Origin: Lachnospiraceae bacterium
GTDB taxonomy: Bacteria; Bacillota; Clostridia; Lachnospirales; Lachnospiraceae
NCBI GenBank assembly: GCA_003453515.1
Contig: DMLD01000086.1
Location: 1 to 17,800 of the forward strand
Direction: 5' to 3'
Length of the DNA stretch: 17,800 nt
Both the position numbers and the translations under genes were made by a program. The notes beneath the pieces are model-generated. The model saw only the letters and a list, made by a program, of their open reading frames with translations, was not told where the DNA came from and searched no databases. Shown piece after piece: positions 351 to 12,890 of the stretch; within the stretch, counting starts at the first letter, position 1; every line of letters starts with the position of its first letter.

Positions 351-1928
351 TTAAAAAGCGTTGTATATGAACTGGCTCGCGTCAAGCCCCGCGCCGTACT
401 TTCCAAACATCACCGTTGCCAAAAACAGCAAAAGGCTCACGGAAAACCTCACCGCATACGGAGTGCTTTTGAGTCTTTCGCCGACCGGCTTGCTCCGTCC
501 GCACATACTCACCGTTATCATCAGTACCACTCCCACAGCGACTATGATGTAGTCTGTCCCGGTAAGCCCGAAGCTCATCAGTTCCGAACCCTTCACGGGA
601 TTTGAGAACAGATCCGTAAACATCCTTACAAACTGCCTGATGGCGAGCTTGGCAGAATTGTACACGTCAAACAGCCGTATACAGCACATCAGCAAAAATG
701 TCCTGCCCACCATAAAAAGCTTATACCCCCACGAAGCCACCAAGACCGGATGCTTCCTTCGAAACCTCCCATACAGCGGAGCCAGCTCTGAGGTGATAAG
801 CAGTATCACTCCGTTAGTGAGTCCCCACGCGACAAAGTGCCACGCCGCTCCGTGCCATATACCCGTAGCCAGCCAGCAGATAAGCGTAGAGAGATATACA
901 GCGATCCTCTTTGCGGCACCCATGCCGAAGTGAGCCTTACCAAAGGATGTGAGCCGCCTCATGGGCTTTGATATGCTGCACGGATAGAAAACATAGTCTC
1001 TGAACCACGTTCCCATGGTGATATGCCATCTTCTCCAGTATTCCGTGATATCCTTTGAGAAAAACGGTCTGACGAAGTTCTCCTCGACTCTTATCCCGAG
1101 CATCCTCGCGATGCCTATGGTGATATCTATACCGCCGGTGAAGTCGGCATACAGCACGATCGCCCAAAATATCATCATTATAAATACGTAGCCGCCGGTA
1201 TAGTGCTTGGCTCCGTCAAAAAGCTCCCTGACAGCAGGCATAAGTCTGTCCGCTATCACAAGCTTCTTGAAGTAGCCCCACAAGACCCTTTGCAGACCGT
1301 ATCCGACCTCGACACCCACAAACTTATGGGGTGTGTAAAGCGTTTGCGAAAGATCTTTGTAGCGGCTTATCGGTCCCTGTATCAGCTGCGGGAAAAACGT
1401 AACGAACAGAAGGAATTTCGGATAGCTTCTTTGCACCTCACACTTTCCCCAATACACATCCAAAAGATAGCTGACCGCCTGAAACGTGTAGAAGGATATA
1501 CCGAGCGGTATGATCAGATCGGGCACATGCACGGCATTGCCCTCATCAAGAAAGCGATTGATGTTTGCTATGACAAATGATGTGTATTTGGTAACTGCCA
1601 AAATTCCTAAATTCAAGATTAAACATGACAGCATTACAAGCTTTTTGCGACGGTTAAATTCTGCTTTAATCTTCTTTTTCTGTGCGCGATCTATTTTTCC
1701 GGAGCTTACAAATTCAGCATATCTTTTGTCCTGAAGCCCTATATACATGGCTGCGAGGTAGACGGTCGTTGCCGTGACCGTGATGTATATGAGATAGCTT
1801 GCCCCCGCAAAATAATAAAAGCCAAAGCTCGCAAACAAAAGAAGCCCCCACTGAAGCTTCTTTGGAATAATATAGTATACTATGACAAGCCCTATTATAA
1901 ATGCGATAAAGCCGTATGAAACGAACAT
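351..1928 (-). CDS. MBOAT-family membrane O-acyltransferase, DltB/AlgI-like
   Basis: This is a polytopic membrane protein of 525 residues (529 if the GTG at 1940 is used). Numbered from the GTG, it has about ten hydrophobic segments, the MBOAT signature region WRRWHITMGTWFRDY around residues 302-316, and the invariant histidine in GIWHGAAWH (H363). MBOAT proteins of the DltB/AlgI type move an activated acyl group from a cytoplasmic carrier across the membrane to an extracellular acceptor. The GTG start overlaps the carrier-protein stop codon as GTGA. However, the ATG at 1926-1928 has a GAGG element 6 nt upstream and is the better-supported start. The gene sits between the carrier-protein gene and the DltD-like gene and is almost certainly translated with them. 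The membrane-transfer role is well supported; the cargo (D-alanine or another amino acid or acyl group) and the acceptor polymer are not shown by the sequence. Confidence 0.9.
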   Translation of the reverse strand: MFVSYGFIAFIIGLVIVYYIIPKKLQWGLLLFASFGFYYFAGASYLIYITVTATTVYLAAMYIGLQDKRYAEFVSSGKIDRAQKKKIKAEFNRRKKLVMLSCLILNLGILAVTKYTSFVIANINRFLDEGNAVHVPDLIIPLGISFYTFQAVSYLLDVYWGKCEVQRSYPKFLLFVTFFPQLIQGPISRYKDLSQTLYTPHKFVGVEVGYGLQRVLWGYFKKLVIADRLMPAVRELFDGAKHYTGGYVFIMMIFWAIVLYADFTGGIDITIGIARMLGIRVEENFVRPFFSKDITEYWRRWHITMGTWFRDYVFYPCSISKPMRRLTSFGKAHFGMGAAKRIAVYLSTLICWLATGIWHGAAWHFVAWGLTNGVILLITSELAPLYGRFRRKHPVLVASWGYKLFMVGRTFLLMCCIRLFDVYNSAKLAIRQFVRMFTDLFSNPVKGSELMSFGLTGTDYIIVAVGVVLMITVSMCGRSKPVGERLKSTPYAVRFSVSLLLFLATVMFGKYGAGLDASQFIYNAF

Positions 1929-1936
1929 ATCAAACC

Positions 1937-2182
1937 TCACTCATCCATAAGTCTTACGATCATATCGGTGAGAAGGTCAGCCGAGTTGAAGTTGTCAGCC
2001 ACAAAATCACCTGCACCTATCTCCACATCAAAGGTCTCTGAAAGCTCTGTCACCAGAGTCACAAGGTCGAATGAATCCAGTATCTTGCCGTCGACCAGCC
2101 CGTCCTCATTTTCAAAATCCACATCCTCGTGAAGCTCTGTCAAAAGGTCGATTATCTCCTGTTTTATCTCATCTCTTTCCAT
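1937..2182 (-). CDS. Acyl/aminoacyl carrier protein, DltC-like
   Basis: This is an acidic helical protein of 81 residues, the normal size of a stand-alone carrier protein. The phosphopantetheine attachment serine is S37 in the motif I-L-D-S-F-D (residues 34-39). The DSF form is the one seen in DltC. The start ATG has a strong AAGGAGG site 6 nt upstream, lying inside the end of the adenylating-enzyme gene, and the two genes overlap by 14 bp. The following MBOAT gene begins at or just beyond this gene's stop, so the three are probably translationally coupled. The inferred role is to receive the adenylated substrate as a thioester and present it to the MBOAT transporter at the inner face of the membrane. 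A general fatty-acid ACP is less likely given its operon. Confidence 0.9.
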   Translation of the reverse strand: MERDEIKQEIIDLLTELHEDVDFENEDGLVDGKILDSFDLVTLVTELSETFDVEIGAGDFVADNFNSADLLTDMIVRLMDE

Positions 2183-3689
2183 GCCTTTCCTCCTTATATA
2201 TCTCCATCAGCCGCATGCGGTCAAGCTTTCCGTTGGGCAGCAGCGGAAGTCTGTCTATCTGTCTTATGGCGTTAGGAACCATATATCCCGGCAATCTTTC
2301 CTTTAGTCCGGTGCCAAGCTCCGCCTTTGTTATATCGCCCGAGTAAAAGAGAACTATCTTCTCATTTTCCCTGAAAAATACGCAGGCGCACCCCTTTACG
2401 CCCTCAACGCAGGCTGCATCCGCCTCTATCTCACCGAGCTCTATCCTGTGTCCCATGTGCTTGATCTGATGATCTGTCCTCGATGCAAAGTACAAAAGCC
2501 CGTCCCTTTTGTATCCCATGTCTCCGGTATGGTATATCATCTCGTCATAATCAGGTCGTGTCGGATCGTGTGTAAAGGCAGCTTTAGTCTTCTCAGGATT
2601 ATTGTAATACCCCTTTGTAAGGCAGCTCCCGCTGATGCAGATCTCTCCCTCGGCGCCCTCCGTAACCTCGTTTCCGTCCTTATCGAGCAGCACTATCCTT
2701 GTGTTTCTAAAGGGTCTTCCTATCGGGATCACATCACCCTTGGCAAACTCCCTGTCGACGCGGTACACACAGCTCATCCCGGTAGCCTCCGTCGGTCCGT
2801 ACAGGTTATAGAACCTAGCATCGGGCAGGGTCTCCCTCCACAGGTTAAACTGCTTTATCGGGAAGACCTCACTCCCAAACGCCACTATCTTCAGATATTC
2901 GGGTCGTACAACATCGAAGGTTTTGAAGCCCGATATCATCGTCAGCACCGAGACCACCCAGCATATGGTATTTATCCTATGCTCGTTCAGGTACTCGACT
3001 ATCCTCGTTGGAAATAAAAATACCTCCGCCGGGATAAGCCATGTAGCTGCCCCGTATAAAAATGTCGAGAGTATCTCCTTCAGGCAAGCATCCAGATAAA
3101 GCGGCGATTGCATACCGAACACACAGTCACCGTCTATCTCCAAAGCTTCGGTGAGTGCATATGCGTAGTCGATCACTCCCCTGTGATACCCCACTACACC
3201 CTTGGGAACACCAGTCGAGCCCGATGTAAAGAGAATGTACACGGGATCAGTGTCGATCGAGCTCTCCCTCACACATGAAAGCCCCTTCTCATCCGTCTCA
3301 TCAGGGATGTCCTCATATTTTAAGATACTGCCGTCAAAATCCAGCCCCATGGCGCTCTCATATGTGGTCTCATCACATATCATCCACTCCGCCTTAGTGG
3401 TCTTAAGTATCAGCTCTATCCGCCATCCCGGCATCTCGGTATCCACCGGAACATAAAAGCAGCCTGCAGCCACCGTGCCAAAAAACGCAGTCAGTGTCAG
3501 AGGTGATCTCCTCATAAAAATGATGACCGGCTCCGAGGCAGCTCCCTTTTTCAGAAGAAAGCTCCCTACGCGATCCGCTCTTTTTTTGAACTCATCAAAA
3601 GATAAAGACAGCTCATCATCCGCAAAGGCTGTACGCCCGGGATACCTAACAGCTGCCTCATCCATAAACTCAAGTATATTGGTTACCAT
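2169..3689 (-). CDS. Stand-alone amino-acid adenylation enzyme, DltA-like
   Basis: 506 residues, the length of DltA. ANL-superfamily core motifs appear in order: the A3 phosphate loop FTSGSTGVPKG (154-164), A5 YGPTEAT (297-303), A7 HTGD, A8 GHRIELGEIE and the C-terminal A10 PNGKLDR with the catalytic lysine. The enzyme should activate a carboxylic acid with ATP and load it on the downstream carrier protein. An aspartate at 200 fits the residue that binds the alpha-amino group in amino-acid adenylation domains, so an amino acid substrate is likely. Pocket positions around 204 (Lys), 270-273 (Ala-Phe-Gly-Ser) and 304-305 (Gly-Met) differ from DltA as I recall it, so I do not assign D-alanine or the symbol dltA. 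The ATG has a GAGG site upstream. The gene overlaps the carrier gene by 14 bp and lies 57 bp after the transglutaminase-like gene. Confidence 0.88.
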   Translation of the reverse strand: MVTNILEFMDEAAVRYPGRTAFADDELSLSFDEFKKRADRVGSFLLKKGAASEPVIIFMRRSPLTLTAFFGTVAAGCFYVPVDTEMPGWRIELILKTTKAEWMICDETTYESAMGLDFDGSILKYEDIPDETDEKGLSCVRESSIDTDPVYILFTSGSTGVPKGVVGYHRGVIDYAYALTEALEIDGDCVFGMQSPLYLDACLKEILSTFLYGAATWLIPAEVFLFPTRIVEYLNEHRINTICWVVSVLTMISGFKTFDVVRPEYLKIVAFGSEVFPIKQFNLWRETLPDARFYNLYGPTEATGMSCVYRVDREFAKGDVIPIGRPFRNTRIVLLDKDGNEVTEGAEGEICISGSCLTKGYYNNPEKTKAAFTHDPTRPDYDEMIYHTGDMGYKRDGLLYFASRTDHQIKHMGHRIELGEIEADAACVEGVKGCACVFFRENEKIVLFYSGDITKAELGTGLKERLPGYMVPNAIRQIDRLPLLPNGKLDRMRLMEIYKEERHGKR

Positions 3690-3746
3690 TATATTTGCCT
3701 CGGTTATCTATATTGTACGGAAAACGGCGATACTACTGCCGTCTCC

Positions 3747-4715
3747 TCAGAACTTAAATTTCTCTTTTACAACATAGGGCTCATGTGTCGTCGTTCCGAA
3801 TACCGCCCCGTGCATGTTGTCATAATACTTGCCGTCTACCATGACAAACGCGTGTGAATGTGCCGCCCAGATCACATACGGCTGAAATCCGAGATCCTTG
3901 GCACAGGCAGCTACCGCACAGGATATACCGTAGCAATCTCCCACGAGTCCGAAGGAAAACATCTCTATGGCAGACCTATACTGCCAGCCTTTCTCTCCGA
4001 AGCCCTGCGGTCTCCAGTCGCCCACGTATACATTGCCTCCGACAATCTGCTTGAAGCACTTTCTGAACTTTTCCATGGCGGAATCCGACGACGATGTGTG
4101 CTTTTTTATAAACTTTCTCGCAAGCAGCATCGCCCTTACCTGCTCCGCGTTTTTGGCGTAGCCCTTTTTGTTCATGGGTATGTAGCCGCACCTTTTCCGC
4201 TTATCGTAGGAGCCGTTCTTTCTGGTGTGAAGCATCTTCTCCCCGACCTCAAACCAGCCCTTGAGCGCATACCCGTTTTTATCTATAAGATATTTTGTAC
4301 CGTTTACCTTGACTGTCTTTCTTTTCGTGTTCCTGAAAAGATGTCCGTATTTGTTGAACACCCTGTATTTTTTGTTTATGGAAACGCTCCCGATGGCAGC
4401 CCTGCAATTTTTCTTGAAATAATACCAGTCTCCGTTGATCCCCTTCCAACGCTTCTTTAACGCCTTTCCGTTGCTTCCGAAGTAGTATATCCTGTTTCCG
4501 GTCTTGATGAGTGTATTTTTCACTCTCTCACCGAATATGTAATAATAGTAGCTTCCCTTTTCCTTTATAAGTCCGGACTTGACCGGTGTCACCGATGCTC
4601 CTCCGCCGCTGACCGCCTCCGAGGCTGCCTTCGAGGTGCTCCCACCGGTGATAAGACCGACACATCCGATAATAAGCATTACTCCGACCCAGACCAGTTT
4701 TCCAACCCGGCTCAT
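3747..4715 (-). CDS. Secreted transglutaminase-like protein with cell-wall-binding repeats
   Basis: 322 residues. Residues 1-31 are a signal sequence or anchor. Residues of about 50-165 contain repeated aromatic-glycine units (for example SYYYYI, NRIYYFGSNGKAL, DWYYFKKN, TKYLIDKNGYALKGW), typical of choline-binding/glucan-binding cell-wall repeats. The C-terminal domain has a transglutaminase/protease core: C261 in GDCYGISC, H288 in HSHAFV and D299 in KYYDNM give a plausible Cys-His-Asp triad. Proteins of this layout are common surface enzymes in Clostridia and may cleave or cross-link peptides at the cell wall; the actual reaction is unknown. The ATG has GGAGGA 5 nt upstream and a strong promoter about 50 bp upstream. 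The dlt-like operon starts 57 bp after its stop with no convincing terminator between, so read-through transcription is likely. Confidence 0.85.
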   Translation of the reverse strand: MSRVGKLVWVGVMLIIGCVGLITGGSTSKAASEAVSGGGASVTPVKSGLIKEKGSYYYYIFGERVKNTLIKTGNRIYYFGSNGKALKKRWKGINGDWYYFKKNCRAAIGSVSINKKYRVFNKYGHLFRNTKRKTVKVNGTKYLIDKNGYALKGWFEVGEKMLHTRKNGSYDKRKRCGYIPMNKKGYAKNAEQVRAMLLARKFIKKHTSSSDSAMEKFRKCFKQIVGGNVYVGDWRPQGFGEKGWQYRSAIEMFSFGLVGDCYGISCAVAACAKDLGFQPYVIWAAHSHAFVMVDGKYYDNMHGAVFGTTTHEPYVVKEKFKF

Positions 4716-4840: not shown

Positions 4841-5087
4841 TAACAACCAAAGCCGCCAAGTCAGAGAAACACAAGTGACGCGGCACGATCTTGCCGATTC
4901 GAAATACCTTTTGACAACCTTAGGCGCCCATGCGGAACTCGCGTGTTTCGCGCGACGGATGCTTTGCATCCCTCTTCGAAACTGCGCTCAAACAGTCCTA
5001 TGGTCGCCTGTCAAAAGGCATCTCTTATCAGGCGCGATCGGCAATGCGCACTTGTTGTTTCTCTGATCTTGGCGGTATTTTTTGTTA
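4841..5087. repeat. 247-bp long imperfect palindrome (MITE-like element or structured RNA)
   Basis: The two halves are reverse complements around a centre at 4964 (GGATGC-TTT-GCATCC, 4957-4971). The outer 20 bp at each end match at 16 of 20 positions (TAACAA...CCGCCAAG). Further matching blocks inside each arm include TCAGAGAAAC, ACAAGTG, TTGCCGAT, CCTTTTGACA and GGCG-CCAT, with small compensating indels. The ends 4841 and 5087 are equidistant from the centre. Short open frames through it (both strands) have no family features and look like chance. There is no convincing target-site duplication directly at the ends. It could be a miniature inverted-repeat transposable element or a long hairpin RNA. 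Confidence 0.75.
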
Positions 5088-5110: not shown

Positions 5111-5313
5111 ATCTATAAGCATTTTTGTTCCAAAGCATCGAGGGGGCGAAGCAGATCCTTTTGCACGAGGGGGCTCAAGCAAACGCCACTGCGCAGCGTT
5201 GGTATTTTCAACGCGTGCAGTGCTGCGTTTGGTTACGGTGCAAACGGACCCCCGAGTGAAAAGGACTGCTTCGCCCCCTTATGTTATAGAAACACCTAAT
5301 TTATAAGCATTTT
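5111..5313. repeat. 15-bp direct repeats flanking the 140-bp hairpin
   Basis: ATCTATAAGCATTTT (5111-5125) and ATTTATAAGCATTTT (5299-5313) match at 14 of 15 positions and lie either side of the hairpin. The right copy encodes the last residues of the HlyD-like protein. They could be a target-site duplication or the remnant of a segmental duplication. Confidence 0.5.
5141..5280. repeat. 140-bp hairpin repeat downstream of the HlyD-like gene
   Basis: The outer arms pair GGGGGCGAAGCAG plus TCCTTTT and GGGGG (5141-5173) with their complement (5249-5280). The inner arms pair CAAACGC...GCAGCGTTG (5180-5201) with CAACGC...GCAGTG...GCGTTTG (5209-5232) around a short loop near 5205. A smaller hairpin GAACAAA/TTTGTTC (5101-5130) lies next to it. 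There is no run of T after the hairpin in the transcribed direction, so it is not a normal intrinsic terminator, although it may protect or end the transporter mRNA. Confidence 0.7.
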
Positions 5314-5712
5314 GATCAGATCCGTCTGCTTAAAGGTGACCCTCACGCGATACGACCCGTCAGGCACGTTGGCATTGGAAACAGCGATCACATTGCCTGC
5401 GCTATCCACCCCCACATCGCTCACCTCAGACATGGTCTCGCCTATCTCTACCTTCATCCCCTCCTTGACATTGTCAGCTATCTCGCTGTTGTCAAAGGCT
5501 ATGGTGAGAACGCCCTTCTCCGCCTTGGCAGTTCCGGAGATATAGCTGTCGACGACCACGAATCTCGACCATATGATGCCGCCTACTATGAGAGCCGCCA
5601 CCACGACAATGACGACCCATATTCTCGGTCTGGTCACCTGCAGATATGTGTCAAGCTGTTCAGGTGAAGTGATCTGCTCGGTACTCTTTTTTCTGAAAAT
5701 TGATTCGTCCAT
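5296..5712 (-). CDS. Short HlyD-like adaptor of an NHLM-type peptide export system
   Basis: 138 residues: a cytoplasmic N-terminus of about 30 residues, one transmembrane segment (about 31-53, rich in Ile/Val/Ala), then an extracytoplasmic beta-rich part. It lacks the long coiled coil and most of the biotinyl-lipoyl hairpin of full HlyD proteins, so it is a minimal form. Its place directly after two NHLM-family ABC transporters (14-bp gap, AGGAGG site overlapping the end of the upstream gene) supports a role as secretion accessory protein. The last codons and the TAG stop lie within a direct repeat and an outer inverted repeat of the adjoining palindromic region. The C-terminus may therefore have been changed by insertion; this is an inference. 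Confidence 0.75.
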   Translation of the reverse strand: MDESIFRKKSTEQITSPEQLDTYLQVTRPRIWVVIVVVAALIVGGIIWSRFVVVDSYISGTAKAEKGVLTIAFDNSEIADNVKEGMKVEIGETMSEVSDVGVDSAGNVIAVSNANVPDGSYRVRVTFKQTDLIKMLIN

Positions 5713-5726
5713 ATCAAAAAGCCTCC

Positions 5727-7901
5727 TTAGTCACTGGCGATCAGCTCGGCATATACGCCGCCCGCCGCATACAGCTCCTCATGCTTACCATGCTCCACGA
5801 TCTGTCCGCCCTCGAGCACAAATATCTCATCACAGTCGCGTATCGTCGAAAGCCTGTGAGCGATGACGATACACGTGATACCGCGATTTTCGATCGCCTT
5901 GACCATCTCATACTCCGTTTTGGCATCAAGGGCTGATGTCGCCTCGTCAAGAATGATTATCGACGGATCCTGCGCAAGGACTCTCGCGACCTCCAGTCGC
6001 TGTCTTTGTCCTCCGGACAGGTCTCTCCCCTCTTCGAGGAGCCTTCCGTGATATCCGCCTACCCTTGCCATGATGTCATCATGTATCTGAGCATCCCTCG
6101 CCGCGAGTATCACCTCATAGTTTTCGATCGTATCATCCCACATTTTTATGTTGTCATCGATCGTGTCTGAGAACAGTGTTATATCCTGATCCACGACCGC
6201 CACTGATCCGGTAAATATCCTTCTGTCGATCTCTGATATGGGCTTTCCTCCAAAGTATATATCACCGCTCCACGGCTTGTACAAGCCGGATATCAGCTTG
6301 GACACCGTGCTTTTTCCGCTACCCGAGCCGCCGACTATAGCCACCTTGCTTCCCGGCCTGATATGCATGGAAAAATCCTTGAGTATCGGATCGGTCATCT
6401 GTGAATAACCAAACGTCACATTCCTTAATTCTATATCGCCGTTGAGCTTCCCGTACTCTTGAACATCCTCCGTTGTTCTTTTAAAAATATCATCGTCGGG
6501 ATACTCCATCACATCCTCGACTCTCTCCATCCTTGTGCGCATCTCCTGCAGGACCTGTCCCGTCTCTATCACGCTCTCGGCAGGGCTCATAAATCCGCCG
6601 AGTATCGTCTGAAACGCCATTATCATACCGAGTGAAAAATCGTATTCTATCGCAAGAAATACGCCGATCACTATGATCATATCCGAGGTCAGCTCCAGTA
6701 TTATCTCCGGGATGATCCCAAGAAAAACATTGACCTCCGTATAACGGACTCTTTGCTTTTGAACGAGCGCCTGATAGCCGGACCATTTTTCAAAAAAGCC
6801 ACGCTCCGCACCGCTTGACTTGATGGTCTCCATCATGCTTATTCCCGAGATCGTCGCGGATTCGAGCCGCCCCTCGTCTCTCATCATAACGCCGGTTATG
6901 TGCACCCTCTTCTTTGAGATGACCCTTGCAAGAAAGAGATTTATGCTCACCGATGCAACACCGATGAGTGAAAGCAGCGGCGAGTAACGTATCATGACCA
7001 CCAGATAGAACACCATCATAAAGGCGTTCAATATGATAGGAGCGAGCTTGTTGACGACCGTCGACGAGATCATCGCATTGTCCTGCTGGCGCATGAGCAG
7101 ATCACCCTTAAGCCTTTGTGAGAAAAATTCCACGGGCGATCTGAGCAGCTTCCACATAAATCCGGAGTTGCCTATGACAGACATTTTTCCGTCTATCTTC
7201 AGAGAGTATACCGCCTGTATCACGGATATAAGTATCTGAAGCGATCCCACCACAGACAGCGTCACCAGGAACGGAATGAGCGAATCCACATTTTCACCGG
7301 TCAGGAGTATATCGACAAAATATCTTGAAAACGACGGATTAATGAGCTCAAAGGCGTACCCGATGAGCATTGTTATCCCCACAAAGAGGACTGCCTTTTT
7401 CGCACCTCTTAGTCTGCCTGCTATGAAGCTAACGACACTTCTTCTCTTTCCGCTCGGAGCATGGTCAGCCCCCGGTCTTATCAGGATACATACGCCGGTA
7501 AACGATCTGTCAAATTCCTCCGTGCTCACCTTTATATCGCCGCGGGCGGGATCCGAGAGATACACATAGCTTCCCTTAAAGCCACGAAGCACCACAAAAT
7601 GATTCATCTCCCAGTGGATGATGCACGGGAACTCTCCCTCGCGCCTCAGCTCGTCCGGCTCATAGCGCATACCCTTTACCTCAAAGCCGTAGCTTCTGGC
7701 GGTTTTCGTTATATGGGATGCTCTCACGCCGTCTCTGGAAACTCCCATATCGGAGCGCAGCTTGGTAAGCGCGACCCATGTGCCATAGTATGCCATGACC
7801 ATGGCAAGCGAGGCAGCACCGCACTCGAGCGTTTCCATCTGCATCACCGTGGGTACCTTTACCACACCCTTGGTGACGGGTTTTCTCGTCCTTTTGCCCA
7901 T
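5727..7901 (-). CDS. Peptidase-containing ABC transporter (PCAT), NHLM bacteriocin type
   Basis: 724 residues, full length. The N-terminal C39 peptidase has Q21 (oxyanion), C27 in LECGAAS, H101 in MNHFVVL and D117 in LSDPARG. This is the complete set that cleaves after the double glycine of leader peptides. A six-helix exporter domain follows (about 165-445), then an ATP-binding domain with Walker A GGSGSGKST, signature LSGGQRQR, Walker B IIILDEATSALD and the H-loop AHRLSTI. Family knowledge: PCATs cut the leader and export the mature peptide. It lies 43 bp after a second ABC exporter and just before the HlyD-like gene. The double-glycine peptide encoded at 10144-10320 is the evident substrate. 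The ATG is preceded by GGAGA. Confidence 0.93.
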   Translation of the reverse strand: MGKRTRKPVTKGVVKVPTVMQMETLECGAASLAMVMAYYGTWVALTKLRSDMGVSRDGVRASHITKTARSYGFEVKGMRYEPDELRREGEFPCIIHWEMNHFVVLRGFKGSYVYLSDPARGDIKVSTEEFDRSFTGVCILIRPGADHAPSGKRRSVVSFIAGRLRGAKKAVLFVGITMLIGYAFELINPSFSRYFVDILLTGENVDSLIPFLVTLSVVGSLQILISVIQAVYSLKIDGKMSVIGNSGFMWKLLRSPVEFFSQRLKGDLLMRQQDNAMISSTVVNKLAPIILNAFMMVFYLVVMIRYSPLLSLIGVASVSINLFLARVISKKRVHITGVMMRDEGRLESATISGISMMETIKSSGAERGFFEKWSGYQALVQKQRVRYTEVNVFLGIIPEIILELTSDMIIVIGVFLAIEYDFSLGMIMAFQTILGGFMSPAESVIETGQVLQEMRTRMERVEDVMEYPDDDIFKRTTEDVQEYGKLNGDIELRNVTFGYSQMTDPILKDFSMHIRPGSKVAIVGGSGSGKSTVSKLISGLYKPWSGDIYFGGKPISEIDRRIFTGSVAVVDQDITLFSDTIDDNIKMWDDTIENYEVILAARDAQIHDDIMARVGGYHGRLLEEGRDLSGGQRQRLEVARVLAQDPSIIILDEATSALDAKTEYEMVKAIENRGITCIVIAHRLSTIRDCDEIFVLEGGQIVEHGKHEELYAAGGVYAELIASD

Positions 7902-7923: not shown

Positions 7924-7949
7924 ATTGGTATCAAGTAATTGGTATCAAG
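7924..7949. repeat. Tandem 12-bp duplication at the end of the ABC transporter gene
   Basis: ATTGGTATCAAG occurs at 7924-7935 and 7938-7949 with a 14-bp period. The right copy contains the transporter's TGA stop. It looks like a slippage duplication with no obvious function. Confidence 0.6.
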
Positions 7950-10125
7950 CGTTTCCCAAACGCTGTCTCTCGACAAGCTCTCTGAACATGTCGCTTTTTT
8001 TCATCATCTCGTCGTAGCTTCCCTCTGACACTATGCGTCCCTCATCCATCAAAAGTATCCTGTCACAATTCCTTATGGTAGACAGACGATGCGCTATGAC
8101 TATTCTCGTGCAGCCAAGCCCCGACAGCGCATCGGACACCCGCTTCTGTGTCCGGTTATCAAGTGCCGAGGTCGCCTCATCAAATATCAGAAGCTGCGGC
8201 TTCGAGGCTATCGCCCTTGCTATCATCAGTCTCTGCTTCTGACCGCCTGATATGCCTCCGCCCCCATCCGATATCATGGTATTCATCCCCATCGGCATAG
8301 AGCGTATATCCTCGGCTATCCCTGCCATAGTCGCCGCCTCCCACGCCTCATCCATGGAAAGCCCGGGCTTTGATATGGCTATGTTGGAATAGATATCGCC
8401 CGCCATCAGGTCTCCGTTTTGCATGACCGTTCCTATATGCGCTCTGAGCGAGGACGGGTCTATTTTTCTGATATCCATACCGTCATAGTACACCGAGCCC
8501 CTGACAGGCTCCTCAAAGCCGAGCAAAAGCCGCATAAGAGTACTCTTGCCGCAGCCGCTCCTGCCGACTATGGCTACGTACTCGCCCGGTTTTATCCTCA
8601 TATCGAGATCATCTATGACATACGGAGAGAGCTCATCATATCTGAAGCTGACATGGTTTAGCTCTATGGCTCCGCTTATATTCCTTATCCTTGTTCTGCC
8701 GCGGCTCACCTCGGGCTCGGCTTCAAGTATGGGCTTTATCTGTTCAAGCACGGGTCTTATCTCCGCTAAGCTCATGGCAGCCTCAGCCAGAGCGTTAAAC
8801 GATGTCACGACCACTCCGAACGCGGCATTGAACGCAAGAAACTCCGCGGGACTCACATCCGTAAGCGCTCCCGAAGCATATATGAATACAGAACCTATAA
8901 GACTTACCGCCAGTATTATCGAAGATCGTATCTTTAACAAAAACGGCGGATTGTATATGAGCTTGGCTCCCTCGGCGTAGTCGCTCGCCCACTTCGCGAA
9001 GGCACGTTTCTCAGCGCCGGACAGCCTTATTTTCGGTATCCCGTTTATGATCCCGTAGGAAAGCCCCACCAGCTTTGCGTGATGCTCCTTTTCCCTGCGG
9101 ACTATCCTTGTCTGCAGTGCTCCCTCGGCGACGATCACCACGACCGTTGCAGCCACTGTGATAAGAGCCGGTGCCACCACGCCCGGTGCAAAGCCCACCA
9201 TCTCAAATATATAAAGAAGCGACGAAAACGCCGTAAGTACCATCCCCAGCACGCTGCCGAACATGATCTCGCACAACGCTCCAACCTCATCGACTCTTTC
9301 CGCGAGCTCTCCCGCCGGAAAGCCCCTGAAAAATGAGGGTTTCAGGCTCAAAAGTCTCATCATCATAGCTGACTGTATCGACAGCGTCACCTTTGATTCG
9401 AGCCTGTCCGAAGCGAACTCGCTCACTCCGTCGAGCACCTTCTTTGACAGCACGATCGACACCAAAAGCAGCGCACTGCCCGTCAAAAATGAGACCCTTC
9501 CGCTCTCGAGCACTATCCCGGTAAGTATGTATACAACTCTTGGCACCATCATTCCGATCAGGGTGGTCAGCAGGGCAAGACAAATAAGCAGGGCGATATC
9601 GGAGGCTCCGAAGCACCTGCTTACATACACTATGAGATCTCTTGCCTTTAGAGAACGCATGGGAAGCGGTCTGTAAAACACATATCCCTCTCCGGAAAAA
9701 TAAGCCGCATTTTTCCTCGTGATACGTATTTTTCTCCCCATGGAATCCTTATAATAGTATCCTCCCATACCTCCGGGAAGGATCGGTGTTGCCACACCAT
9801 CGACCGTAAAGACCATCATCGGACCGTGGGCATCCCTGTACCATTTGTCCTTAAGGCTCACCCTTCTGTACATTATGCCCTTGGGGCGCATCACATATTC
9901 AAGCTGCTCCGTGGTCTCGGTCAGGTTATCGGGAATCTCCTCCGGCTTGAAATGAAAGTATTTGAGTATGGCGTTTGCCGCGATCCTTGTTCCGAGTCTC
10001 TCTTCATCGAGATCGCCCGCCCTGTTTTCACCGATAACCGAAGAGGCCATCTCGAAGATCGACTCTTCAAAGACGGCCTGATCTGATTTTTCTCTCTGTT
10101 TTATCTGTTGTTCAAACCAACCCAT
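7945..10125 (-). CDS. NHLM-type ABC transporter, permease/ATP-binding protein without C39 peptidase
   Basis: 726 residues. The first 170 or so form a soluble N-terminal region (starting MGWFEQQIKQR) typical of the second ABC protein in NHLM clusters. It has no C39 cysteine motif. Transmembrane helices span about 180-450. The nucleotide-binding domain has Walker A GRSGCGKST, signature ISGGQKQR, Walker B LLIFDEATSALD and AHRLSTI, so it should hydrolyse ATP. It probably works with the peptidase-type transporter encoded next. The ribosome binding site is weak (no good AGGAGG before the ATG at 10125), and the gap after the peptide gene is only 18 bp. This could make exporter translation depend on, or be lower than, peptide translation. 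Confidence 0.92.
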   Translation of the reverse strand: MGWFEQQIKQREKSDQAVFEESIFEMASSVIGENRAGDLDEERLGTRIAANAILKYFHFKPEEIPDNLTETTEQLEYVMRPKGIMYRRVSLKDKWYRDAHGPMMVFTVDGVATPILPGGMGGYYYKDSMGRKIRITRKNAAYFSGEGYVFYRPLPMRSLKARDLIVYVSRCFGASDIALLICLALLTTLIGMMVPRVVYILTGIVLESGRVSFLTGSALLLVSIVLSKKVLDGVSEFASDRLESKVTLSIQSAMMMRLLSLKPSFFRGFPAGELAERVDEVGALCEIMFGSVLGMVLTAFSSLLYIFEMVGFAPGVVAPALITVAATVVVIVAEGALQTRIVRREKEHHAKLVGLSYGIINGIPKIRLSGAEKRAFAKWASDYAEGAKLIYNPPFLLKIRSSIILAVSLIGSVFIYASGALTDVSPAEFLAFNAAFGVVVTSFNALAEAAMSLAEIRPVLEQIKPILEAEPEVSRGRTRIRNISGAIELNHVSFRYDELSPYVIDDLDMRIKPGEYVAIVGRSGCGKSTLMRLLLGFEEPVRGSVYYDGMDIRKIDPSSLRAHIGTVMQNGDLMAGDIYSNIAISKPGLSMDEAWEAATMAGIAEDIRSMPMGMNTMISDGGGGISGGQKQRLMIARAIASKPQLLIFDEATSALDNRTQKRVSDALSGLGCTRIVIAHRLSTIRNCDRILLMDEGRIVSEGSYDEMMKKSDMFRELVERQRLGNA

Positions 10126-10143: not shown

Positions 10144-10320
10144 CTATTTTACTATTTCATGAACCTGTTTCATGTGCTTGTCCAGATCCTTCCGTGACTC
10201 AAAAAACTCAGGGCAGTACTGACACCTATAATAAGCCATGCCTTTTTTTGTCTTATCTCTATTTACCCCGCCTACTGCGCCGTCAAGCTCTTCTTCACTA
10301 AGCTCTCTTGGATCATTCAT
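10144..10320 (-). CDS. Double-glycine leader precursor peptide with a C2H2 zinc-finger core
   Basis: 58 residues. The ATG at 10318-10320 has a perfect AGGAGG 7 nt upstream. The leader (1-18) is acidic and fits the double-glycine consensus: L7-S8 at -12/-11, E11-L12 at -8/-7 and G17-G18 at -2/-1. The predicted core (19-58, about 40 residues, basic) holds C33-x2-C36-x3-F40-x5-L46-x2-H49-x4-H54. This is the complete classical C2H2 zinc-finger pattern, including the hydrophobic core residues. The gene lies 45 bp after the EAL-protein gene and 18 bp before the two exporters, exactly where a bacteriocin precursor is expected. No lantibiotic synthetase, radical SAM or other modifying enzyme is in the window, so the product may be exported unmodified and fold around a metal ion. 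Function is unknown: antimicrobial, signal, metal scavenger or nucleic-acid binder are all open. Confidence 0.9.
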   Translation of the reverse strand: MNDPRELSEEELDGAVGGVNRDKTKKGMAYYRCQYCPEFFESRKDLDKHMKQVHEIVK

Positions 10321-10365
10321 CACGCAACCTCCTTTTTCTTGACCTTTTTATAAAAATACTGTGTA

Positions 10366-12120
10366 TCAAAGCTCTGTTTTCTCCCAGACAAGACCCTTGT
10401 CCCTGCTTTCGTGTCTTGTCTGATCCATCGGCTGGGGCTTTCCGAAATAATACCCCTGGGCTCTGACACAGCCTATGGATCTTAGAAACTCAAAATGCTT
10501 CTCCGTTTCAACGCCCTCAGTCAGGGGCTCCAGTCCAAGCTTTGACGCCCCGCTGACTATATAATTCATAAGTATGTCTGTTTTCGGATTTTTGTCAAAG
10601 CTTCTCAAAAATACCAGATCGAGCTTCAGCACATCAAAGTCGAATTCCGTAAGGACATTGAGCGATGAGTATCCGCTTCCGAAATCATCCAGCCAAAGCT
10701 TGTACCCCTTATTTCTGAAGCGCTTGCACTCATTTTTCAAAAAGTCGTCCTTGTCGGTCAGTGCGCTCTCTGTTATCTCTATATCCAGATACTCGACCGG
10801 CACTCCGTAAACCTCTCTGGTCATCTCTATGGAGTCAAACACATCTATCAGCTCGAAGTCAAGCCGCGACAGGTTGATGGATACCGGAACGAGCGGCTCG
10901 CCCTGGAGCTTGAGCCTTCTGTAGTCCTTGCAGACCTGCTCGATCACATAGCTGTCCACCAGATGTATCAGGTGAAACTGCTCGAGCGTCTCGATAAAGT
11001 CACCCGGCGAGAGAAATCCCACGGTCGGATCTATCCAGCGCACCAGCGCCTCATATCCGCATATCTCGCCCGTACTGCACCTGATGACAGGCTGATAGTA
11101 CACATGTATATAGTTATTCTTGATAGCCTCGTCTATATGGTCGACCACATACTGCTGCTTGCGCATCTTCTCCCTGAGCATCTCGTCATATATACAAAGA
11201 TTGATGTCGTGCCTTGCCTTGATCGAATTGCACGCCAGTCTCGCATGGTCGCACGCAAGTCCCACCTCGGAGTAGTTCTCCTCCATGAAGTAGACTCCCG
11301 CCTTGATCCTGACTCTCTTGGTGGGATCCTCATGCGTCAGTATTTTCCTGAAAAATCTGTCGATCATCAGGGAGACATCGTCCTTGTCCTCGACATTTAT
11401 ATAGACAACAAAGTGATCGTCCGAAAACCTCGAAATGACCCCACCGACAAACACATCATGGAGTGCCTTTCCCACCTCGCACAAGAGCTCGTCTCCAAGT
11501 CTGAAGCCGTGTCTCTCGTTGTAAAGCTTGAACCTCGGTATATCAAAGTGTACAAAGGCTATGTGACCCCTGAGATCCTCGGGGTTTTGGAGCTTAAGCT
11601 GGACACTCTGATAGAAAAATGCCATGTTGAACAATCCCGTCAGCATATCTATCTCGCTGTTGACCGAAAGCACCTCCGCCTCGGCAAAGCTGTTCTTGCT
11701 GCGGTTCAGATACTCATCCTGATCCACATCAACTATGAACACATAGAAGAACTTCTTGCCCGACACGCCGTGAAGCAGATGCCCGAAATCCTCTATATAC
11801 CGGATCTCCCCGTTTTTCGGCTTGATCCTGTAGCGGACATAATCGTGTCTTTTCTCTCCGAACATAGTCTGAGCCTGTATCTCGTTTTGGATCTTCTGGA
11901 GATCCTCCTTGTACACCATGCCACTGAATGTGTTTCCGGTATACTCCCTGAATTCATCCAGTGTCGAGCATCCGAACATCGCTATAACATTCTCATCGGC
12001 AAAGAGTATCCTCTCTTCCTTGCCAGCCTCGTAGATAAAGAATCCACCCGGGACTCCTATCGGATAATACTGACGATCCATATCACCCATTTCATTGCCC
12101 TCATAACACATAACTTCCAT
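10366..12120 (-). CDS. PAS-GGDEF(degenerate)-EAL c-di-GMP phosphodiesterase
   Basis: 584 residues from the ATG at 12120. A PAS-like domain (about 17-135) is followed by a GGDEF fold whose active-site motif reads S-D-D-H-F (233-237), so cyclase activity is unlikely. The EAL domain (about 325-570) keeps the catalytic set: EALVRW at 357, INLS, EITES, DDFGSGYSSL, KLD, TEGVE and AQGYYFG. The protein should therefore hydrolyse c-di-GMP, with the GGDEF fold perhaps sensing GTP. A longer frame from a GTG at 12261 would overlap hypB by 46 bp and has a poor ribosome site. The ATG at 12120 has AGGGGG 7 nt upstream. Another in-frame ATG 11 codons later has GAGGG and is also possible. The gene lies between hypB and the zinc-finger peptide gene. 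Confidence 0.88.
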   Translation of the reverse strand: MEVMCYEGNEMGDMDRQYYPIGVPGGFFIYEAGKEERILFADENVIAMFGCSTLDEFREYTGNTFSGMVYKEDLQKIQNEIQAQTMFGEKRHDYVRYRIKPKNGEIRYIEDFGHLLHGVSGKKFFYVFIVDVDQDEYLNRSKNSFAEAEVLSVNSEIDMLTGLFNMAFFYQSVQLKLQNPEDLRGHIAFVHFDIPRFKLYNERHGFRLGDELLCEVGKALHDVFVGGVISRFSDDHFVVYINVEDKDDVSLMIDRFFRKILTHEDPTKRVRIKAGVYFMEENYSEVGLACDHARLACNSIKARHDINLCIYDEMLREKMRKQQYVVDHIDEAIKNNYIHVYYQPVIRCSTGEICGYEALVRWIDPTVGFLSPGDFIETLEQFHLIHLVDSYVIEQVCKDYRRLKLQGEPLVPVSINLSRLDFELIDVFDSIEMTREVYGVPVEYLDIEITESALTDKDDFLKNECKRFRNKGYKLWLDDFGSGYSSLNVLTEFDFDVLKLDLVFLRSFDKNPKTDILMNYIVSGASKLGLEPLTEGVETEKHFEFLRSIGCVRAQGYYFGKPQPMDQTRHESRDKGLVWEKTEL

Positions 12121-12215
12121 CACAGGTCCCCCTTCTTGGCCCATGCAACAAGCCTTGTTCGCACACCACGAACCGCATCCTGATAATATATTTAGAAAAT
12201 ACCGATCAAAGCTGT

Positions 12216-12890
12216 TTACCTGATCCACTCCTCTGTCTGTGCAGCCAGCCACTTGATCCACTCACCTATGCCCTCACCGGTCTTTGCGCATATCGGTATC
12301 ACAAGGGCATCAGGATTTCTTTTTTTAACATATTCCCTGCACTTATCAATGTCAAAATCAAAATACTCCATAACATCGATCTTGTTGATGAGTACCACAT
12401 CGCATACAGTGAACATCAGCGGGTACTTTAGCGGCTTGTCGTCTCCCTCGGGGACTGACAGTATCATCGCATTTTTCACGGCACCGGTGTCAAACTCAGC
12501 CGGGCATACTAGATTACCCACATTTTCAAGTATGGCGATATCTATGTCCTCGTCATTTATCTCATCGATACCCTGTCTGGTCATCCCGGCGTCGAGATGG
12601 CACATACCGCCTGTATGCAGCTGGACAGACTTAACTCCGCTGCCCGCTATGGTCTTGGCATCGACATCCGAGTCGATATCCGCCTCCATCACACCGATAC
12701 GGTAGGTATCCTTCAAGCCCTCTATAGTACGCAAAAGCGTCGTGGTCTTGCCCGCTCCGGGAGACGACATCAGATTAAGCAAAAATGTCCTTCTGCTTTT
12801 GAGCTCCTCACGAAGCAGCTTGGCCTCCCTGTTGTTATCCTCGTAAACGCTTTTTTTTACCTCTATTACCCGTACCCTGTCCTCGCTCAT
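12216..12890 (-). CDS. hypB: HypB, hydrogenase/urease nickel-incorporation GTPase
   Basis: 224 residues, the usual size for HypB without the N-terminal CxxCGC metal site. It has the P-loop SSPGAGKT (42-49), the ADIDSDVDA segment near 70, LHTGGMCHLDAGM with the metal-site pair C97-H98, LENVGNLVCPAEFD with C129, and NKID for guanine recognition. HypB inserts nickel into [NiFe]-hydrogenase using GTP hydrolysis, normally with HypA. No other hyp gene and no hydrogenase is in the window, so its placement at the head of a c-di-GMP and peptide-export operon is unusual. The ATG has GAGAGGA upstream and a strong promoter about 100 bp upstream. Confidence 0.93.
   Translation of the reverse strand: MSEDRVRVIEVKKSVYEDNNREAKLLREELKSRRTFLLNLMSSPGAGKTTTLLRTIEGLKDTYRIGVMEADIDSDVDAKTIAGSGVKSVQLHTGGMCHLDAGMTRQGIDEINDEDIDIAILENVGNLVCPAEFDTGAVKNAMILSVPEGDDKPLKYPLMFTVCDVVLINKIDVMEYFDFDIDKCREYVKKRNPDALVIPICAKTGEGIGEWIKWLAAQTEEWIR

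Follow-up and report, generated by a model that had tools for sequence, protein, structure and literature searches.

A putative exported zinc-finger peptide with a double-glycine leader and a linked C39 peptidase exporter in a Lachnospiraceae bacterium

The leader-finger peptide and its gene

The stretch of DNA analysed here (17,800 nucleotides of contig DMLD01000086.1, assembly GCA_003453515.1, from a Lachnospiraceae bacterium; hereafter the window) carries a small gene whose product joins a double-glycine (GG) leader to a classical C2H2 zinc finger. The gene lies on the minus strand at 10144..10320, from an ATG at 10320 to a stop codon that ends at 10144, and encodes 58 amino acids; a program-made list of open reading frames (ORFs) begins it one codon earlier, at a GTG. 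An AGGAGG ribosome-binding site (10328..10333, minus strand) stands seven bases 5' of the ATG, and a GGAG or GGAGG site precedes 12 of 12 family genes whose upstream DNA was read. The leader comprises 18 residues, MNDPRELSEEELDGAVGG (10267..10320, minus strand), with L(-12), E(-8), L(-7), A(-4), G(-2) and G(-1). It is followed by a core of 40 residues, the predicted mature peptide (10147..10266, minus strand; K+R minus D+E = +4), with the motif C-x2-C-x3-F-x5-L-x2-H-x4-H; the finger itself extends from C33 to H54 (10159..10224, minus strand). A preliminary description, made from the sequence alone, had read the 58-codon gene in just this way, and both the ORF and the aligned homologues bear it out.

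Support for the finger comes from Pfam matches and from structure prediction. The window peptide matches zf-C2H2_4 (1.5e-5) and zf-C2H2 (3.5e-5), both slightly below the gathering score; for PF00096 it reaches 24.4 against a gathering score of 25.2, and 25.4 when neighbouring sequence was included in the search of 39 genomes of the genus. Pfam lists 12 families for the peptide, none of them the ROS/MUCR domain, and neither the leader model TIGR01847 nor the nitrile-hydratase-like and Nif11-like leader models match it at E<=1. A sister peptide, P0002, exceeds both curated cut-offs (18.1 versus 15.7 for TIGR01847, 25.7 versus 25.2 for PF00096), and the peptides of loci L083 and L100 fall just below that of TIGR01847. 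AlphaFold2 (AF2) predicts a beta-beta-alpha finger for the window peptide, with a predicted local distance difference test score (pLDDT) of 82-83 at residues 31-50. For the two members modelled the same fold is predicted at moderate confidence, with a finger pLDDT of 82-86 and means of 63.6 and 66.2. A Foldseek search with the predicted finger gave no match at E<=0.001; all 50 rows listed are C2H2 finger proteins (for example Kaiso, 0.5 A over 26 columns), and the closest solved relatives are DNA-binding C2H2 fingers. From the invariant ligands described below and the predicted fold we infer zinc binding, and a metal-bound finger is very probable.

The exporter genes and their linkage to the peptide

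Downstream of the peptide gene, on the same strand, follow three genes of an export system, separated by gaps of 18, 43 and 14 bases. The first encodes an ATP-binding cassette (ABC) exporter subunit without a peptidase (7945..10125, minus strand), which is NHLM_micro_ABC2-like (TIGR03797, 685.6 bits, below the cut-off of 709.4). The second encodes a C39 peptidase-ABC exporter subunit (5727..7901, minus strand) of the NHLM_micro_ABC1 type (TIGR03796, 866.9 bits, above the cut-off of 853.3). Its C39 peptidase domain (7470..7856, minus strand; PF03412, 3.6e-36) contains Q21, C27, H101 and D117, which we take to be the functional residues; Q, C, H and D are kept in all nine aligned rows that include the N-terminus. 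The third gene encodes a short HlyD-like adaptor of 138 amino acids (5296..5712, minus strand), which matches the N-terminal part of TIGR03794 (33.5 bits, far below the cut-off of 156.2); this short form (~138 amino acids) recurs in the other clusters. The preliminary description had placed the peptide next to a C39 exporter: a linked C39 gene is indeed present, but the gene directly downstream is the ABC subunit without a peptidase, and the C39 subunit comes next.

The same genes accompany the peptide elsewhere in the genus. All seven peptide-bearing genomes among the 39 hold the short HlyD, C39-ABC and ABC genes, which share strand with the peptide and also contig in six of them; in the seventh (G008) they are spread over contigs. 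The order HlyD, C39-ABC, ABC, peptide occurs in G002, G037, G026 and G007, the window shows the permuted order peptide, ABC, C39-ABC, HlyD, and in G011 and G008 a hisA-like gene precedes the peptide within the exporter cluster. In G008 the exporter genes and hisA lie on contig C326, while the tail of ABC2, hisA and then the peptide lie on C398; the hisA sequences on the two contigs are not the same, and the bin, with 6% contamination, may therefore combine more than one strain. The link to the transporters that had been predicted holds for 8 of the 13 copies in the genus; the other five have no exporter on the contig stretches examined.

In a tree of ABC2 proteins (25 rows, that is, 25 of 29 ABC2-type matches, leaving out G008:C457, G015:C113, G021:C123 and G037:C89), the proteins of the seven genomes group together, with support of 81/70 when the window is included and 100/100 for the other six. 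G012 adjoins this group (99/99 for the eight), and the window forms a long branch. Among the C39-ABC proteins compared, the closest to that of the window is G031:C266 (locus L083), at 58.7% identity. The C39-ABC frame of G002 (L014, 4241-6559) is about 50 residues longer (772 versus ~725).

A conserved peptide family

Two profiles were searched against a set of 5.8 billion proteins, in which 22 clusters combine the leader with a C2H2 finger. The first profile gave 22 matches, namely 19 full leader-plus-finger proteins, two fragments (P0020, P0021) and one unrelated protein without a finger (P0022), and the second added three members. Some of these entries carry the database name C2H2-type zinc finger protein and derive from Eubacterium sp. 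Within the genus, a search at E<=0.001 gave 13 matches in 7 of 39 genomes. Of these, 11 have the classical finger, one (L031, identical with L100) has a finger shorter by one residue and one (L032) is a C-x2-C-x15-H-x3-C variant. A further copy of the peptide lies on contig C94 of the source genome (212 contigs, 61.8% complete).

Across 26 aligned rows (without P0020-P0022, L032, L033 and P0024-P0026, P0025 being the L100 peptide and P0026 the L033 peptide), the residues E11, L12, G17, G18, C33, C36, H49 and H54 are invariant and L7 is nearly so. The pattern C-x2-C-x3-[FY]-x8-H-x4-H is kept in 25 of these rows, the L100 finger being one residue shorter. In the 25, the hydrophobic places of the finger always keep F or Y and mostly keep L and I, M or V, and the positions between them vary. 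Apart from a 93% twin (P0001), the aligned homologues are only 29-52% identical to the window peptide, and all four zinc ligands, the GG pair and the leader contacts are retained in them. Thus no full-length homologue in the alignment has lost a zinc ligand or the GG leader; only the fragments P0020, which is a finger without leader, and P0021 each miss one half. The core net charges range from +2 to +7 across the family. For a related pair of cores (G037 versus G002), non-synonymous divergence (dN) is 0.030 and synonymous divergence (dS) 0.32, with five synonymous and three non-synonymous codons of 42. On these alignments the gene is confirmed as a member of a conserved family, beyond chance, and the observation in the preliminary description was correct, if understated.

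The conserved leader positions are also informative. Passages of PMC10885120 and PMC6363468 name -12, -8, -7, -4, -2 and -1 as the positions through which substrates contact C39 peptidases. In the peptide family the conserved positions are -12 (L7), -8 (E11), -7 (L12), -2 and -1 (G17, G18), and -4 is Ala in the window; this agreement counts in favour of export by a C39 system. The leader contacts are more constrained than most positions of the core.

Searches with either half of the peptide lead back to the same family. A leader-only profile, run against the 39 genomes at E<=0.5, gave 16 matches, of which 13 are short frames, all with zinc-ligand cores; the other three are frames of 518-644 residues (E 0.057-0.43), which we read as chance. 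Since the profile was built from family members, among them most of these 13 but not L032, this search indicates that the leader is unseen with other cores, rather than being an independent rediscovery. PF00096 alone gave 10 matches in six of the 39 genomes, all of them these leader peptides, and missed the three G011 peptides; in 14 control genomes it matched only in Methanocaldococcus jannaschii.

Beyond the genus the family is rare. At family level, 15 of 397 genomes matched at E<=0.001, with one clear case outside the genus (L033, genus g169) among the 10 of 17 matches outside the source genome that were inspected, the other seven lying in frames of 167-718 residues. At order level (392 genomes, E<=1e-5), only the source genome stands among the matches listed. 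The 18 other NHLM-type exporter regions of the genus (L082-L099) include one with zinc-type cores (L083) and nine with GG peptides that lack them; in eight, GG peptides were not found. In the taxonomic family, TIGR03796 marks 30 loci in 25 of 200 genomes, with GG-leader peptides no more than 1.5 kb from ABC1 in five loci (six peptides). None of these six has a zinc-type Cys pair, a weak negative because peptides beyond ABC2 lie outside the flanks, so that the peptide is overlooked even at L131, the locus of the window itself.

Other GG-leader ORFs carry possible metal ligands. At L083 (6507-7066, G031:C266), the NHLM exporter is followed by two peptides that have GG leaders and paired Cys motifs and match no Pfam zinc family. 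In other genera of the family, GG-leader ORFs that are possible zinc ribbons occur at L035 (CxxC plus CxxxH) and at L039, L041, L045, L047 and L048 (two CxxC pairs each).

Diversification of leaders and cores

The cores fall into two types, one with a C-terminal HPGEP tail (a branch with 96/96 support) and the rest. At least two peptide copies are present in five of seven genomes, and G002, G007 and G008 hold one of each core type. The G037 gene is chimeric: the DNA upstream of it agrees with that of the first G002 gene at 57 of 60 bases and its leader matches the same gene at 47 of 54 bases (34 of 54 for the second gene), whereas its core matches the second G002 gene at 117 of 126 bases. As judged from these alignments, cores are swapped behind leaders, that is, by leader-core recombination.

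A related pattern appears in a genome of another genus, G210 (contig C59; L103, 11911-13463), where four GG peptides stand in tandem with near-identical leaders of 32 residues (84-94% identity). Their four cores differ: one is of the zinc-ribbon type, two are of the C2H2 type, and the fourth, of a Cys/His type, has no clear support from Pfam. The array lies at a contig end, and that 13.6-kb contig carries no exporter. A leader-only search of G210 gave six matches, one of them truncated without the GG and five full peptides with zinc-type cores; one of these five, on C43, passes the TFIIS zinc-ribbon score.

A mobile origin of the peptide was also considered and was set aside after empty searches. 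For P0002 and the window peptide, the IMG/VR contigs (searched by short exact seeds) yielded no relatives, and nor did plasmids; phages yielded none for the C94 paralogue. A phage is nonetheless a possible donor of the finger, because the finger region of the C94 paralogue (L013, 6248-6421) matches the phage family phrog_6283 (E 8.6e-8).

Neighbouring genes

Upstream of the peptide, on the same strand, a PAS-GGDEF-EAL gene (10366-12261) ends 45 bases before its ATG. Downstream of the exporter, 351-4715 on the same strand encodes a DltA-like adenylation enzyme, a carrier protein, an MBOAT (DltB-like) protein and a choline-binding-repeat protein, a set not seen with the other clusters compared. 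Two intergenic elements with inverted ends lie at 4853-5075 and 5141-5279, the first with a 78% copy on contig C124 of the source genome, and an Rfam scan of the window gave no structured RNA at gathering score. Three genomes share two genes (108-122 and 260-288 residues) upstream of HlyD, at L018, L021 and L105; one of the two genes could be an immunity candidate. Three similar small ORFs with a MNRFELFTLIYF-type start surround the G037 cluster (L015, 15226-15913 and 19094-19444).

Proposed function and alternatives

Conservation extends jointly to the leader, the finger and the exporter genes, and because of the leader, the exporter and their linkage, export of the peptide is highly probable on sequence grounds. 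By comparison with characterised C39 peptidases, the leader helix would dock through L(-12), L(-7) and A(-4), the C39 domain would cut after the Gly-Gly pair (G18), and the 40-residue core would then be exported, with the two ABC proteins presumably acting as one exporter. Outside the cell, Cys2His2 coordination of one zinc ion is predicted to pin the fold, a task that disulfides would perform poorly in what is likely a reducing, anaerobic habitat. The folded peptide might then bind a target on competing cells, as is suggested by the swapping of cores, by the paralogues and by a scaffold that stays fixed while its surface residues vary. We favour such a zinc-pinned, bacteriocin-like exported mini-protein acting on neighbouring cells, since leader-core swapping and the combination of conserved leaders with diverse cores follow the pattern of LahA-type and class II peptides; for this reading as a whole we estimate a probability of about 45%. 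By analogy the peptide may work like a C39-exported class II peptide, although we do not class it as a bacteriocin. A bacteriocin was among the roles first suggested and is the one that fits best, as a prediction. It counts against antagonism that no immunity gene is common to all clusters compared, in a comparison blind to very small or overlapped ORFs.

Other uses of an exported finger are conceivable. The peptide could be a secreted signal that folds around zinc and is sensed by related cells, with an export route like that of ComC/ComA; we regard this as rather unlikely. C39 exporters do also carry signals, according to passages of PMC6363468 and PMC10885120, P0002 has a weak match to the ComC family (E 0.0071, below cut-off) and the GGDEF-EAL gene of the window stops 45 bases short of the peptide ATG. 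That gene, however, adjoins the cluster only there, the clusters compared share no sensor kinase or receptor, and core swapping and array diversification suit antagonism better. More doubtful is the proposal that cells short of zinc export the peptide as a scavenger (zincophore) or as a zinc-loading peptide. C2H2 fingers bind zinc tightly and the Cys2His2 site is invariant in all 26 rows, which would suit such a role; a mere chelator, however, need not keep the hydrophobic core or the spacing of a finger, and no uptake gene is common to the clusters compared. Zur-like boxes in 13 upstream regions were no better than in shuffles (best 5-7 mismatches of 14 versus shuffled means of 5.1-5.7, for the consensus used), and Zur-controlled scavenging was rejected for this reason; the scavenger role first suggested thus found no support. 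Similarly doubtful is a role in binding nucleic acids after export, whether on DNA outside cells or within a protozoan or a cell of a eukaryotic host. The closest solved relatives bind DNA and the cores are basic (+2 to +7), but a single finger has little sequence specificity and the would-be DNA-reading positions vary within the family.

Two further explanations dispense with the exported zinc site altogether. The CxxC pair might form a disulfide or thioether, with the histidines coincidental, in an ordinary modified or disulfide-bearing class II peptide; extracellular Cys pairs are often oxidised, and C39 systems often carry modified peptides (passages of PMC10885120). This seems improbable given that both His and their spacing are invariant, that a finger fold is predicted from the alignment and that none of the 10 window proteins scanned is a modification enzyme. 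Least probable of all, the product could be an intracellular zinc-finger microprotein whose N-terminus is merely leader-like, as the five of 13 copies without a nearby exporter and the leaderless entry P0020 would allow. Against this stand the stronger constraint on the leader contacts than on most of the core, the score of P0002 above the curated bacteriocin-signal cut-off and a cluster linkage kept across rearrangements.

A wider, still more tentative proposal is that Lachnospiraceae-type bacteria secrete small zinc-bound folds (C2H2, C2HC, zinc ribbon) by means of GG leaders that can be exchanged. In an anaerobic habitat zinc would then serve as the staple in place of disulfides or lanthionines, and the C2H2 branch would have an exporter lineage dedicated to it. 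If true, an exporter lineage with C2H2 cargo would bring a fold and a stapling chemistry that are both new to secreted peptides, and could be a ready source of zinc-dependent antimicrobials or signals.

Comparison with known systems

Fingers of the classical C2H2 type are known from inside cells, mostly those of eukaryotes, where they bind nucleic acids. The claim that no bacterial export system for such a finger had been described held up in the mostly open-access literature, where we found no description of double-glycine-exported zinc fingers; the word zinc is also absent from a rumen bacteriocin survey (PMC13289728). The export route is thus of a known kind, and a classical zinc finger as its cargo is undescribed as far as the open-access literature shows.

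With the classical fingers (PF00096, PF13894) the peptides share the spacing, the hydrophobic core and the predicted beta-beta-alpha fold, and P0002 passes PF00096, but here a single finger stands in a bacterial protein behind an export leader. The prokaryotic fingers of Ros/MucR likewise have a bacterial Cys2His2 zinc site; Ros87, as presented in passages of PMC5745721, is however an intracellular DNA-binding domain of 58 residues with a larger hydrophobic core, in contrast to the exported finger of about 26 residues predicted here. The NHLM/NHLP export cluster (TIGR03794, TIGR03796, TIGR03797; Haft et al. 2010, PMC2887384) has the same three-gene exporter architecture, and ABC1 of the window meets TIGR03796. 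It differs in that ABC2 and the adaptor fall under the cut-offs, in that the adaptor has ~138 residues here versus 421 there, and in its leaders, which are nitrile-hydratase- or Nif11-like rather than 18 residues long. The closest parallel in leader design is found among the C39/PCAT GG leaders of class II bacteriocins, ComC and LahA1-9/LahT of Lachnospiraceae C6A11. According to passages of PMC6363468 and PMC10885120, these too combine hydrophobic residues at -12, -7 and -4 with GG at -2/-1, a linked C39-ABC gene, and conserved leaders with divergent cores, whereas the family described here is set apart by its C2H2 core, by unlinked paralogues and by the lack of a modification enzyme among the window proteins scanned.
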